A DNA stretch of 64,000 nt, taken from the NCBI GenBank assembly GCA_029960065.1, contig JASCOF010000002.1, positions 186,001 to 250,000 on the forward strand. The letters are read 5' to 3'. This document shows, piece after piece, positions 3,359 to 55,735 of the stretch (positions within the stretch are counted from its first letter, which is position 1; the number at the start of each line of letters is the position of its first letter). A model generated the notes under the pieces. It made no database searches. It had not been told where the DNA came from and saw only the letters and a list, made by a program, of their open reading frames with translations. This DNA comes from Flavobacteriaceae bacterium PS02336 (lineage in GTDB: Bacteria > Bacteroidota > Bacteroidia > Flavobacteriales > Flavobacteriaceae). The translations under genes were made by a program, and so were the position numbers.

Positions 3359-4690
3359 TTATAAATACGATTTAAACTGTTTTAGTTTTCCGCGTTTGGT
3401 TCTTTCTAAAATAGTTTTTCGTGTAAAAGTGAAGTGTAAATTGGGTTCCAAATATAAAGCGATGGCTTCTTTTATTTTTTGAATTTGTTCTGAAACTAAT
3501 GCTGTCTCAGCAACATATTCAATTTCAAAAGTATCTAATTGTGTTTGTTTGATGATAAATTCTTTTACATTTCCATCATCTTCAATGATGCTTTTGGTTA
3601 CATAATAGAATGTCAAACCTGGCGATTTTTTCCCGCTTGGAAGAATCGCAACGTCGTTGGTTCTTCCAATTAATTTTTTAAGAATTGGTTTTTGTGGCGT
3701 GCTTTTTTCGTCTAAAATACCAATATCGCCAATTTCATATCGGATAAAAGGATTTGCTTTGTTGAATAACGATGTAATCACAATTTTTCCTTCTGTTCCA
3801 TGTGGAACAGGAATATTGTTTTCGTCTAAAATCTCAACAAAAAGAGTTTCGGCATTTATCTGCCATTCGCCTTTCGGATTTTCAAAAGCAATCAAATCCA
3901 ATTCAGATGCGCCATATTCGCTAATAATTGGAATACCGAATTGTTTTTCCAGCAATATTTTATCTGTTTCAAAAAGCATTTCCGAAGTAACAAAACAAGC
4001 TTTTAAAGTCGGACAGATTTCATTTAATATAATACTTTTCTGTTCTAAAAATTTGGCAAATAAAACAATAGAACTTGTATAACCGTTGATGTAATCGAAT
4101 TTTTTAGTTTTGAATTTCTTCAGAAATTTTTCAAGAATTTCATCCGATAAATCAAAAACAGGAAAACGAAAACGATGCGTTAAAAAATCTTTGAAACGTT
4201 CTTTTTGATATCCAATAAAATCCATCGGAATGCCGTAAAAACGCGCTTGATACGAATGATTAAAATCAATACCAAACCAGCCAAAGCGCATAATATTTGA
4301 AGCCCAGGTTAAGGCGTGCGAATATTTATCTTTGGCAAAAACAAAAGGAGTTCCGCTTGATCCAGAGGTTTTGTTGAGGTAAATATTGGCTTTTGAATAC
4401 CCTCTTGAAAGTCTTTCTTCAAGAGGTTTTTGTAAATTTTGTTTGTTTAATATTGGAAGATTTTCCCAGTTTTCAGCATTTTTATCTCCAACTAAATCTT
4501 TGTAAAAGGAATTATGGTTAAGATGAAAATCAACGATTTCTCTCTTTTTGTTTTCAAGAAAAGTGACATATTCCTCTTCAGAAAAACGTACAATTTTATC
4601 CAATTCGGCTTTTGCTTTCTTTATCTGAAAACCATTTAATTGAAGTGAAAGATCAAAAAGACGAATCATTTTTCGGAATATTTTCATCAA
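3359..4690 (-). CDS. CapK-like adenylate-forming enzyme (phenylacetate-CoA ligase family)
   Basis: A 443-residue member of the PaaK/F390-synthetase/CapK branch of adenylate-forming enzymes, expected to activate a carboxylate as an adenylate in the cytoplasm. The phosphate-binding loop SGSSGTP is at 109-115, SEYGASELDLIAFE lies near 257, and RYEIGDIGILD and GRTNDVAILPSGKK occur in the C-terminal half. CapK-type members are known from capsule loci and the neighbours are glycan genes, so a role in modifying a surface polysaccharide is likely. It reads toward ORF6N from a start at 4690, about 110 bases from the divergent purD start. The substrate is not predictable. Confidence 0.82.
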   Translation of the reverse strand: MMKIFRKMIRLFDLSLQLNGFQIKKAKAELDKIVRFSEEEYVTFLENKKREIVDFHLNHNSFYKDLVGDKNAENWENLPILNKQNLQKPLEERLSRGYSKANIYLNKTSGSSGTPFVFAKDKYSHALTWASNIMRFGWFGIDFNHSYQARFYGIPMDFIGYQKERFKDFLTHRFRFPVFDLSDEILEKFLKKFKTKKFDYINGYTSSIVLFAKFLEQKSIILNEICPTLKACFVTSEMLFETDKILLEKQFGIPIISEYGASELDLIAFENPKGEWQINAETLFVEILDENNIPVPHGTEGKIVITSLFNKANPFIRYEIGDIGILDEKSTPQKPILKKLIGRTNDVAILPSGKKSPGLTFYYVTKSIIEDDGNVKEFIIKQTQLDTFEIEYVAETALVSEQIQKIKEAIALYLEPNLHFTFTRKTILERTKRGKLKQFKSYL

Positions 4691-53212: not shown

Positions 53213-53830
53213 TTATTTATTATATAATGTATTGATAGTTTCGTTTGTATATTTTTCGTTTTTCTCCTTGCTTATAAGGCAAAGAAAAGCTTTATAATTG
53301 TCATTAAAAAATTCTACCCAGCCGCAAAGAACTGTATCAGCTTTATTTGTGTTTAATAAAATCTCTGAATAGTTCCACAAAAATTCTGAATTGAAAGCAT
53401 CAAATATAAAGAAAGAATTTTCACTTTTCAGCTGATGACGGATACTTATTTCGCCCAAACAAATATTTGGCAGTGTATAAACAAAAACCGCCGGACTCGG
53501 AAAATAGTTTTCTTTGTCTGAAATGGATTCCTGATATTTTACATCGGTATCTAAACTTGACGATTTATTAGCCAAAACCAAAGCGATATTATGCTCTTTT
53601 TCTTCTGAAGTTATCGGACTCAATAGCAATTCTGATCCTAAAAAAGCCAGTTTACTCAAAGCATCCATTTTGAAAAACTTTGGATATTGCATTTCAAAAT
53701 TACGATAGGCTTGTTTGGAGAAATCTGCAAAATCTGTTGGTTCAATTTTAAATACAGAAGTTCCGTTCAAAACAATTTCGTTGTTTTGGATGGTGATGTA
53801 GGATTGTATGTAGGTTTTGTTTTGAGTCAT
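53213..53830 (-). CDS. Short ketosynthase-like protein (3-oxoacyl-ACP synthase N-terminal type)
   Basis: About 205 residues from the ATG at 53830. It resembles the short 3-oxoacyl-ACP synthase proteins seen in flexirubin clusters: one thiolase-like half with IALVLANKSSSLDTDVKYQ and VFVYTLPNICLGEISIRHQLKSE, the last Cys being at the position where a KS nucleophile could lie but in a different context. No His motifs follow, so it cannot be a complete enzyme alone; it may bind ACP or help a full KS. The opposite-strand promoter at 53816-53847 overlaps its start codon. Confidence 0.75.
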   Translation of the reverse strand: MTQNKTYIQSYITIQNNEIVLNGTSVFKIEPTDFADFSKQAYRNFEMQYPKFFKMDALSKLAFLGSELLLSPITSEEKEHNIALVLANKSSSLDTDVKYQESISDKENYFPSPAVFVYTLPNICLGEISIRHQLKSENSFFIFDAFNSEFLWNYSEILLNTNKADTVLCGWVEFFNDNYKAFLCLISKEKNEKYTNETINTLYNK

Positions 53831-53847
53831 TGTTTTTTGTAACTTTG
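53816..53847 (+). promoter_or_regulatory. Promoter facing right inside the flexirubin operon (TTTG-N20-TAACTTTG)
   Basis: TTTG at 53816-53819, a 20-base spacer and TAACTTTG at 53840-53847 give a full Bacteroidota promoter on the plus strand, in a block otherwise wholly minus-strand. It ends seven bases before the ATG of the 61-codon gene, so the leader would be only two to four bases. Confidence 0.65.
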
Positions 53848-53854
53848 TCAAGTT

Positions 53855-54040
53855 ATGAAATTCTACGAAAAATATCCGCAATTAAAAAACAAGAGCTTTT
53901 TATCAAAAGTTCTTGCTGATACTGTATTTTCTACAATGTCTTTAGAAGATCAGCATGTTTCTAAAAGCAAAGTTGTCAAAATTGTTGATGCCATTTTAAA
54001 GGATAAAGAATTAAAAGGAAATCAATTCTTCACTAATTAA
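53855..54040 (+). CDS. Small protein facing the Fic gene; candidate Fic antitoxin
   Basis: A 61-residue, helical, charged protein (pI near neutral to basic). It is the only plus-strand gene in the last 27 kb, has its own good promoter (53816-53847), and its last 30 bases overlap the 3' end of the convergent fic gene. Residues 27-32 read TMSLED, close to the inhibitory (S/T)xxxE(G/N) motif of Fic antitoxins such as VbhA, though D replaces G/N; a VVKIVDAIL helix follows as in those proteins. Seen: frame, promoter, motif. Inferred: antitoxin. It might instead be a chance frame or an unrelated small protein. Confidence 0.6.
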   Translation: MKFYEKYPQLKNKSFLSKVLADTVFSTMSLEDQHVSKSKVVKIVDAILKDKELKGNQFFTN

Positions 54041-54592
54041 TTGATTTAATAATTTATAATCTCCATTGTCAGCAGCTTTCATTGCGCTAATATAAAATTT
54101 TCTGCTTTCGCCTTCTCTGTGATATAATTCTAAAGGTTGATATCCAAACTTTAATGCGATAAGATTCATCAAAATTCTTCCAGTCCTTCCATTTCCATTA
54201 TTGAAAGGATGAATTTTTATAAATTCATAATGTGCATAGACTAAGCACTCAACATGATCTTCTAAAGTTTTAGAAATGGAAATTTTAAAATTAAGATTAT
54301 CTAGAAACTGATACATGGCATGTAAAACCATTACTGGTTTTGGTGGAATTAGTTGTCCAACAGAAACTTCTGTTGTTCTCCATTTTCCAGCCCAATCGTA
54401 AAGTTGTTCAAATGCAATTTTATGAATTTCTAAAACAAGTGTTGTTGAAATATCAACATCAGTTTCTAGTTCAAAAGTAAAAAGCTCTGCTTTAGCAATT
54501 CCAGATGCTTCAAATTCATTTATTTGATTTTTATCAGTCAAACCAAGTAAATTATCATCAGGAAAAGGTGTCCAATTAGTTTGATTTTCCAT
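54011..54592 (-). CDS. Fic family protein (AMPylase-type)
   Basis: A 193-residue Fic-domain protein with the complete catalytic motif HPFNNGNGRTGR at 128-139 (catalytic His128). The N-terminal half has ELETDVDISTTLVLEIHKIAFEQLYDWAGKWR, the usual Fic start. Fic enzymes transfer AMP or other phosphates to target proteins and are often toxins held by an antitoxin. I see no convincing inhibitory (S/T)xxxE(G/N) in this protein itself (TFELET at 39-44 lacks the final G/N). It is fitted into the pigment operon three bases after a KS gene, with a 180-base gap after it holding the opposing small gene. Confidence 0.92.
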   Translation of the reverse strand: MENQTNWTPFPDDNLLGLTDKNQINEFEASGIAKAELFTFELETDVDISTTLVLEIHKIAFEQLYDWAGKWRTTEVSVGQLIPPKPVMVLHAMYQFLDNLNFKISISKTLEDHVECLVYAHYEFIKIHPFNNGNGRTGRILMNLIALKFGYQPLELYHREGESRKFYISAMKAADNGDYKLLNQLISEELISF

Positions 54593-54595
54593 ATC

Positions 54596-55735
54596 TCATT
54601 TTATCTTTTCAAAAACCATAGCCGTATTACAACCTCCAAATCCAGAAGCCGTTTTCAAAAAATACTCAATATTCTTTTCTTCATTTTTCTCAATAACATT
54701 TATTCTTTCACTAACACCAATTTCATCAAAACCTTTTGATTCAAAAAGTAAATTTTGATTCGCAGATTCTATTGCAATTACCGTTTCCAATAATCCCGAA
54801 GCGCCTAATGTATGACCGTAAAATCCTTTTAAACTATTTACTGGAACATTTTGCAACCCTAAACGATTTAAAGCAATCGCTTCCATTTCGTCGTTAAACG
54901 GAGTTGCGGTTCCGTGTGCTGAAATATAATCTAATTTATTGGCTTCAATTTGAGCTTCTTTTAAAGCATTTTGAATACTTCTGAACAAACCTTCACCCGT
55001 TCTTGACGGTCCAGAAATATGATTCGCATCGTTTATCGAACTGTCACCAATCACTTTTATTTTAGCGTTTTTGGCTTCCGCCGAAATTAAAACCGCTGTT
55101 GTTGCTTCGCCTAAACTTACTCCGGTTCTGTTTTTAGAATACGGTTTACAAGGCAGATCGCTCATGGCTTGAAATGCATTAAATCCAGATAAAACAAATT
55201 CTGAAACTTCATCGCCAGCAACAACAAAAATATTATCGTAAAGTTCAGATTGAATCATTCTTTTGGAAATTGAAACTGCTAAAATTCCAGAAACGCAGGC
55301 ATTTGAAACTACAATTGGCTGTGTTTGAAATTTGAAGAAATCGGCAACGTTTTTTGCTAAAACATCTAAATGTGCGTTGTTGAAATTTTCCTCAGAATTA
55401 TTTTTTAAAGCCGTAACATTTCCTTTTGTGGTAGAAAGTATAAAAGCGGTTTTTGAGTTTAATTCAACTCCAGAATTTTTGACAATCGGCTCTAAAGCCA
55501 GAATCATCATTTTCTCTAAGCGAGAATATTTGGTTTCAGTGCTGATTTTTGCAAAAGCACTGTTTATTTTTTCATTTGAAATAATTGAAGCATAAAAGGA
55601 ATTAGGCATTAAAGAAATGTCATTATGAAGCTGAATGCCCGAATCACTGCGAAGAATTGCTTCAACATTTGATTCGACATCAAAACCTAAAGGCGTGATA
55701 CAATTGGTTTCTGTAATGTATATTTCTCTTATCAT
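54596..55735 (-). CDS. Beta-ketoacyl-ACP synthase (second complete KS)
   Basis: About 379 residues from the ATG at 55735 (two codons inside a TTG-started frame). Complete active site: Cys149 in SNACVSG, His276 in AHGTATPFND, His310 in GHTLGASG (numbered in the 381-residue frame). It differs clearly from the KS at 51616, so it may start or finish a different chain, e.g. an alkyl branch of the resorcinol. Followed after three bases by fic. Confidence 0.9.
   Translation of the reverse strand: MIREIYITETNCITPLGFDVESNVEAILRSDSGIQLHNDISLMPNSFYASIISNEKINSAFAKISTETKYSRLEKMMILALEPIVKNSGVELNSKTAFILSTTKGNVTALKNNSEENFNNAHLDVLAKNVADFFKFQTQPIVVSNACVSGILAVSISKRMIQSELYDNIFVVAGDEVSEFVLSGFNAFQAMSDLPCKPYSKNRTGVSLGEATTAVLISAEAKNAKIKVIGDSSINDANHISGPSRTGEGLFRSIQNALKEAQIEANKLDYISAHGTATPFNDEMEAIALNRLGLQNVPVNSLKGFYGHTLGASGLLETVIAIESANQNLLFESKGFDEIGVSERINVIEKNEEKNIEYFLKTASGFGGCNTAMVFEKIK

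Follow-up and report, generated by a model that had tools for sequence, protein, structure and literature searches.

Why does a flexirubin-type pigment operon carry a fic gene, and does the 61-codon gene that meets it tail to tail encode its antitoxin? The question arose in the window, by which we mean the whole 64,000-nt stretch of Flavobacteriaceae bacterium PS02336 that was analysed (assembly GCA_029960065.1, contig JASCOF010000002.1, positions 186,001-250,000, forward strand). The operon is of the dialkylresorcinol/flexirubin type, with DarB and DarH matched above their curated cut-offs. As the first-pass annotation of this DNA had stated, the ATG of fic lies 3 nt behind the stop codon of a ketosynthase gene, on the same strand, and a plus-strand gene of 61 codons ends 30 bases inside fic; both placements were confirmed. 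In window coordinates, the features are as follows.

53213-53833, minus strand: following gene of the operon, unmatched by any family above cut-off, with a start region that extends into the -33 region of the small gene
53816-53847, plus strand: promoter-like TTTG-N20-TAACTTTG before the small gene, with the -7 box at 53840-53847
53855-54040, plus strand: small gene, 61 aa, likely Fic antitoxin supplying an inhibitory helix (conservation; profile match to the MmyA C-terminal segment, TIGR02612)
53933-53947, plus strand: T27-x3-E31 motif of the small protein (AF2 model and alignment)
54011-54040, both strands: tail-to-tail overlap of the small gene and fic, 30 bp
54011-54592, minus strand: fic, 193 aa, likely toxin of the HPFNNGNGRTGR subfamily (PF02661; AF2 model matches FICD, VbhT and EcFicT)
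54176-54211, minus strand: FIC motif H128-R139, with N132 at the Mg2+-ligand position
54596-55735, minus strand: dialkylresorcinol/flexirubin operon gene for a ketosynthase, immediately upstream of fic

Our preferred reading, which we hold to be probable from the sequence comparisons below, takes the locus for a mobile module of two genes, a Fic toxin and its antitoxin, built tail to tail and with a class-I-like function. This reading and the alternatives weighed below are not mutually exclusive.

The small gene and its pairing with fic

The 61-codon gene is real and conserved. Full-length copies numbered 42, including that of the window, and came from Bacteroidota and Ignavibacteriota. They belong to 43 loci (41 from the scan of species genomes, the window and L010), from which L059, with a frame broken after 21 codons, was excluded for full-length counts and for the small-gene tree. 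The 41 species-scan loci included representatives of Flavobacterium, Mucilaginibacter, Larkinella, Cyclobacteriaceae, Chitinophagaceae and an Ignavibacteriales MAG. A scan of the genus found the gene in 10 of 249 genomes at E ≤ 3.2e-13; an eleventh match (L011, E 0.003, internal stop) was left out, and genus loci L002-L009, which duplicate named loci, were counted once. The family-wide sample of 349 genomes contained no convincing further copy. Its four matches were the window and three weak ones, L060 and L061 (internal stops) and L062 (inside a 712-aa frame), which were dropped as doubtful.

Residues T27, M28, L30, E31 and Q33 were invariant in all 42 full-length proteins. The resemblance of the window's TMSLED to the inhibitory motif (S/T)xxxE(G/N), pointed out in the first-pass annotation, is present and conserved up to the glutamate: (S/T)xxxE occurred in 42/42 proteins, and position 32 was D in 22, N in 19 and E in one, the window's own D being outside E(G/N). 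Purifying selection acted on the small gene and fic alike. For codons 1-52 of the small gene, which lie outside the overlap with fic, the median dN/dS was 0.10 among the ten operon copies paired with fic; it was 0.07 for the operon copies of fic, where selection is strong.

The association of the two genes was also observed in scans in which the small gene did not serve as bait. At E ≤ 1e-30, fic was found in 7 of 249 genus genomes, with a convergent small gene at 7/7. The pair is rare in the phylum (8 of 395 genomes), where the eight fic matches were the window, six further intact genes (L124-L129) and a broken one (L130) beside an intact small gene; all six intact fics faced a convergent ORF bearing [STN]-M-x-[LI]-E-x-Q. 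Plasmid-borne fics of Hymenobacter and Pontibacter, at 42-43% identity, had the convergent small gene in 3/3 cases. In total, every intact fic found bait-free (16/16, down to 42% Fic identity) had at its 3' end a convergent small gene bearing this kind of motif, and the small frame was intact at all 16. The refuting condition named in the first-pass annotation, a small frame broken or unconserved in relatives that keep fic, was therefore looked for and did not turn up. The motif was present in 9/9 distant partners, of which those of L127 and L129 (TMYIEEQ), like the fic of L128 (HPYTNGNGR), were identified by reading the ORFs. Spacing in the distant loci varied, with an overlap of 4 bp in L127 and a separation of 3 nt, hence no overlap, in L129. 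In L124-L126 (53-55% identity), fic is extended at its C terminus and shares 96-117 bp with the convergent small gene. Among viral contigs, the peptide patterns used revealed no relative of the small protein or of Fic.

A fic ORF was present at 25 of the 43 small-gene loci and was intact at 24, L056, in which fic is cut by a stop, being excluded from the intact-pair counts and from the Mantel test. The phase of the fic stop was identical in 24/24 intact pairs, the overlap measuring 30 bp in 15 of them and 39 bp in nine. The two proteins also diverged together, with a Mantel r of 0.944 over the 24 intact pairs (0/9999 permutations) and of 0.49 within the ten operon copies (82/4999 permutations). 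The proposal of a convergent Fic pair is borne out by the bait-free co-occurrence and the constant phase. It is scarcely credible that the small ORF is unrelated to fic and shares its spot by chance; the small protein had no Pfam or NCBIfam match above cut-off and no PADLOC model match, as such a chance frame might, but the 16/16 co-occurrence, the r of 0.944 and the phase kept in 24/24 pairs speak against it.

The Fic active site and the putative inhibitory helix

The window Fic matched PF02661 with 75.2 bits and, across residues 13-190, the PADLOC model PDLC04839 (PDC-S04) with 143 bits. Its AF2 model (pLDDT 87.5) was closest to FICD (Z 20.0), followed by VbhT (19.5), EcFicT (18.7) and Fic-1 (18.5). 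The motif (S/T)xxxE(G/N) was found within the chain of 0/25 fic ORFs, and therefore no class II or class III motif is present in cis.

The active site had been described as intact, which did not hold in full: HPFNNGNGRTGR departs at its fifth position, N132, from the canonical HxFx(D/E)GNGRxxR (PMC3667792, available part), and the equivalent residue was N in 25/25 fic ORFs. As the D/E ligand of Mg2+ is replaced by an invariant asparagine, AMP transfer by this Fic cannot be assumed. The remaining signature residues H128, G133, N134, R136 and R139 were invariant in the 28-row Fic alignment. Four aligned MmyB Fics (L067, L079, L080 and L081) also have N in place of D/E, so that a whole Fic branch may have a different metal site or chemistry. 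Stanger et al., in the available part of their paper, describe the residue as poorly conserved in one FicT subgroup and bring up the matter of its magnesium requirement (PMC5033356). That Fic is a dead or altered enzyme, and the conserved pair a binding module such as an operon regulator, seems to us quite unlikely; the asparagine of all 25 ORFs and the four MmyB proteins, along with the poor conservation in that FicT subgroup, would suit such a module, but the five invariant residues and the dN/dS of 0.07 fit an enzyme.

We also considered that the pair might be a signalling enzyme with a switch subunit, the small protein toggling Fic between modifying and demodifying activities so that the pair regulates a house protein. 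This agrees with the closeness of the model to FICD, for which the sources available in part report both AMPylation and deAMPylation, and with the Fic-1-AntF complex, described in the available part of PMC13327609 as a deAMPylase. Nevertheless, the patchy distribution (7/249 genus genomes), the plasmid copies, and the cassette-like array and repeated fic loss described below fit a mobile selfish module better, and we regard a signalling role as unlikely.

In the AF2 model of the small protein (37 sequences, pLDDT 88, pTM 0.71), a helix of residues 13-30 was followed by a loop and a second helix of residues 37-53, with the T27-E31 motif ending the first long helix. EcFicA likewise has its SRRLEG motif at the end of the first helix, and both S and E of the motif are in contact with the second FIC-motif Arg, according to the available part of PMC5033356. 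The equivalent second Arg in our family is R139, which is invariant in the 28 aligned Fics and is a candidate partner of E31. In the toxin-antitoxin reading, the 61-aa protein would supply an inhibitory helix, residues 13-30, ending in T27-x3-E31; this motif would occupy the nucleotide site of Fic, with E31 against R139, and the predicted binding would inhibit the enzyme. Fold searches with the small-protein model returned common helical arrangements alone (Z ≤ 5.5; Foldseek E ≥ 3.6), and VbhA and FicA were not among the matches listed. A search of PDB sequences with the small-protein profile did not retrieve VbhA or EcFicA; its sole match, a ribosomal protein S3 chain (E 0.003), was taken as chance.

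The nearest relative identified was found among the 'mobile mystery' proteins. In NCBIfam, the small protein only weakly matched TIGR02612 ('mobile mystery protein A'), in its C-terminal part (E 0.075), and direct comparison of the small-family and MmyA profiles with hhalign gave a probability of 92%, E 6e-7 and a score of 40.5, spanning MmyA residues 107-139. In the controls, 100 column shuffles of each profile reached at most 20.6 and 20.9, and the reversed profile 11.1. The MmyA alignment comprised 17 proteins out of 20 phylum loci, and M-x-L-E-x-Q near the C terminus was invariant across all 17. The N-terminal part of MmyA is an XRE-type helix-turn-helix (HTH). MmyB, a Fic protein, stands directly downstream of MmyA on the same strand at 18 of the 20 loci (partial in two of the 18); none was found next to MmyA in L063 and L071. 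Judging from the profiles, the small protein and the C-terminal segment of MmyA are homologous, but the HTH is absent from the small protein, and its closest identified kin would therefore be a part of an HTH protein encoded in tandem with a Fic protein.

Promoter-like boxes, the operon slot and small genes without fic

The first-pass annotation had assigned to the small gene a full TTTG-N20-TAACTTTG promoter with almost no leader. The -7 box stood the test: TAnnTTTG occurred 4-10 nt before the ATG of the small gene at 39 of the 43 loci, against 0.53 on average and 3 at most in 300 shuffles, and 3-10 nt before just one of the 193 further ORFs with ≥ 100 aa at those loci. The full pattern did not. 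In the window, it ends 7 nt before the ATG, and it is non-significant alone, being found seven times against 5.6 expected and as often in 28/100 shuffles; a significant full promoter from the window sequence alone was rejected on this near-expected count. A TTTG or TTG 17-22 nt from the box (-33 element) was present at merely 12/43 loci. In Bacteroidota promoters, a distance this short between box and ATG makes an almost leaderless message.

The related claim, an own promoter for the small gene and none for the operon fic, agrees with the distribution of the box before fic. Outside the pigment operon, the same kind of box lies 4 nt before the fic ATG at 8/15 loci (shuffles: mean 0.07, maximum 1); inside the operon, it was found in 0/10 copies. 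The module thus often seems to have a promoter-like box at each outer end, with the operon copies of fic lacking theirs. Each gene probably had its own promoter at its outer end at first. The fic of the flexirubin operon, without a promoter, is presumably read from the operon, whereas the antitoxin would keep its own almost leaderless promoter. Read-through would then express the putatively toxic Fic, and the operon message could act as antisense to that of the antitoxin.

The place where the pair resides is a variable slot, the gap between the ketosynthase gene and the next operon gene (window 53834-54595). The ketosynthase was present in 46 of 121 genus genomes. Among the best 30 ketosynthase loci (L085-L114), 28 showed both neighbours; in six, the gap was 0-82 bp, and in 22 it was filled. 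The cargo consisted of fic with the small gene (two), the small gene with an SMI1-like gene (one), or SMI1-like, lipoprotein-like, RhuM or unknown genes, where the SMI1 label refers to matches below the Pfam cut-off and 'lipoprotein' was assigned by eye. The main cargo ORFs other than the small gene point in the direction of the operon. RhuM-family genes (PF13310, PADLOC PDC-S05) occupy the slot at L021:3506-4510 and L090:495-1496, and in L021 the gene stands between the ketosynthase and a broken fic, the small gene being intact.

As 15/25 fic ORFs lie outside the pigment operon, coupling to pigment production, one of the roles first suggested, is not the general role of the pair. The array of F. 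lotistagni (L033) lies outside the operon; it is cassette-like, as is that of L034, with genes on one strand and ~140-nt repeats between them, and the pair forms one unit of it. The repeats flanking it (2822-2962 and 3795-3934) fold better than 200 shuffles (z -4.8 and -3.3) and resemble attC hairpins, but they end in a GTTGGC-type sequence and not in GTTRRRY. A strict integron cassette was rejected, since a narrow search of 20 loci for the attC pattern had no match and since, in L034 (z 0.04) and L031 (z -1.05), the right-hand repeats folded no better than shuffles. The MAG of L030 encodes, at L115:1450-2646, an integron-integrase-like protein with 237.6 bits to TIGR02249, below the cut-off of 265. 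Recombinases of several other pair-bearing genomes match TIGR02249 with a gap at about positions 180-238.

The small gene often occurs without its partner. Seventeen of the 42 full-length copies had no intact fic, which fits an antitoxin, as this could stand alone; 12 of them occupy this same position in the flexirubin operon, and the other five lie elsewhere. At the pigment-operon site itself, 12 of the 22 full-length small genes lacked an intact fic. The idea that losing the pigment operon or fic would be costly is consequently unsupported, and addiction of the operon was rejected, because fic is frequently missing at this site while the small gene persists. Remnants of fic were found in L021, L030 and L052. 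In L035 and L037, the ATGGAA of a fic start was seen by eye behind the ketosynthase stop; the other members of their clade bore no trace.

A single clade (support 100/97) unites 11 operon orphans on the small-gene tree, where the presence of fic requires at least seven changes. Selection within the orphan clade was purifying, with a pN/pS of 0.26 for three pairs on separate paths (Fisher p 5e-8) and of 0.23 for two pairs deep inside (p 7e-6); over all rows, the median dN/dS was 0.22. The T-x3-E motif was intact in 11/11. No other fic with more than 33% identity to the window Fic was found at E ≤ 1e-6 in the 11 orphan genomes. On a quick ketosynthase tree of 50 rows, many of its branches weak, the 13 small-only rows (the 11 clade orphans, L021 and the decayed L059) need 12 changes. 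Recombination thus seems to carry the orphan allele from one species to another, and the allele seems to be retained for the protein that it encodes. Several separate losses of fic may also have occurred inside the clade.

It is possible, if on the doubtful side, that the small gene today often serves for anti-addiction or immunity, protecting against an incoming module or related Fic elements, which would be compatible with the main reading. The single clade of 11 operon orphans, both pN/pS values, the motif kept in all 11, the 12 changes among small-only rows and the lack of a close fic in the 11 genomes all point this way. On the other hand, such a role accounts for the orphans and not for the 24 intact pairs, the slot copy of L059 has decayed, and separate fic losses inside the clade are possible, given the fic-start traces of L035 and L037, though the others have none. 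The apparent movement and retention of the orphan allele is the strongest sign of an anti-addiction role, and equally the strongest sign that the toxin-antitoxin reading may be incomplete: with 11 of them under purifying selection and no close fic in the genome, the orphan protein may have another role.

Returning to the two-gene toxin-antitoxin module, we offer a more far-reaching version of it as speculative and rather doubtful. The pair would represent an undescribed Fic toxin-antitoxin lineage whose gene pairs all converge, whose genes are both almost leaderless and whose FIC site is of the N type. Regulation would lie in the geometry itself: whenever the surrounding operon or array is transcribed in the direction of fic, toxin would be made and the antitoxin gene would be traversed in antisense. 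In at least 11 Flavobacterium species, the antitoxin would also have escaped as a free, recombining anti-addiction gene within the pigment operon.

If our main reading is true, it adds a convergent, HTH-free branch to the Fic toxin-antitoxin family, ties the 'mobile mystery' proteins to Fic inhibition through the shared M-x-L-E-x-Q, and describes a Fic subfamily without the Mg2+ ligand, yet conserved with its partner. The paired, toxin-lost and empty sites in close species make a natural experiment on orphan antitoxins as anti-addiction genes.

Comparison with known systems

The locus was filed as neither canonical class I FicTA nor MmyAB, because it departs from them in its FIC signature and gene order and stays below the curated cut-offs. 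In the open-licence literature, the titles and abstract beginnings covered mentioned no convergent Fic pair. The available text there named 'mobile mystery protein B' but contained nothing joining mobile mystery proteins with Fic, and nothing was found in that literature that joins flexirubin, operon and Fic.

With the class I FicTA systems (VbhA-VbhT, EcFicA-EcFicT and AntF-Fic-1), the pair shares a single-domain Fic without an inhibitory motif in cis, the Fic fold (Z of 19.5, 18.7 and 18.5 to VbhT, EcFicT and Fic-1, as above), and a separate helical partner of ~60 aa with S/T-x3-E at a helix end. It differs in being convergent, whereas the FicTA antitoxin is encoded directly upstream in an operon (PMC5033356 and PMC3667792, available parts). 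Moreover, the last motif residue is mostly D/N in our family (E once) as opposed to G/N, N132 stands in place of D/E, and the PDB sequence search detected no homology of the small protein to VbhA or FicA.

Sofic-AS1 also combines a Fic with a small antitoxic protein encoded downstream; however, AS1 has 47 aa and Sofic bears an inhibitory helix of its own (PMC12249575, available part). PADLOC PDC-S04, a candidate defence label, is matched by fic but not by the small protein.

MmyA-MmyB (TIGR02612/TIGR02613) is alike in both components: the small protein matches the C-terminal segment of MmyA, including the invariant M-x-L-E-x-Q, and Fic has the same N-type motif as the four aligned MmyB proteins, to which it is 26-30% identical. 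In contrast, MmyA has an N-terminal HTH-type segment that is absent from the 61-aa protein, and the A-B order is tandem in 18/20 loci, while the window pair is convergent. Both window proteins score below the curated cut-offs, with 85.7 against 124.4 bits for Fic (TIGR02613) and 12.9 against 122.6 bits for the small protein (TIGR02612).
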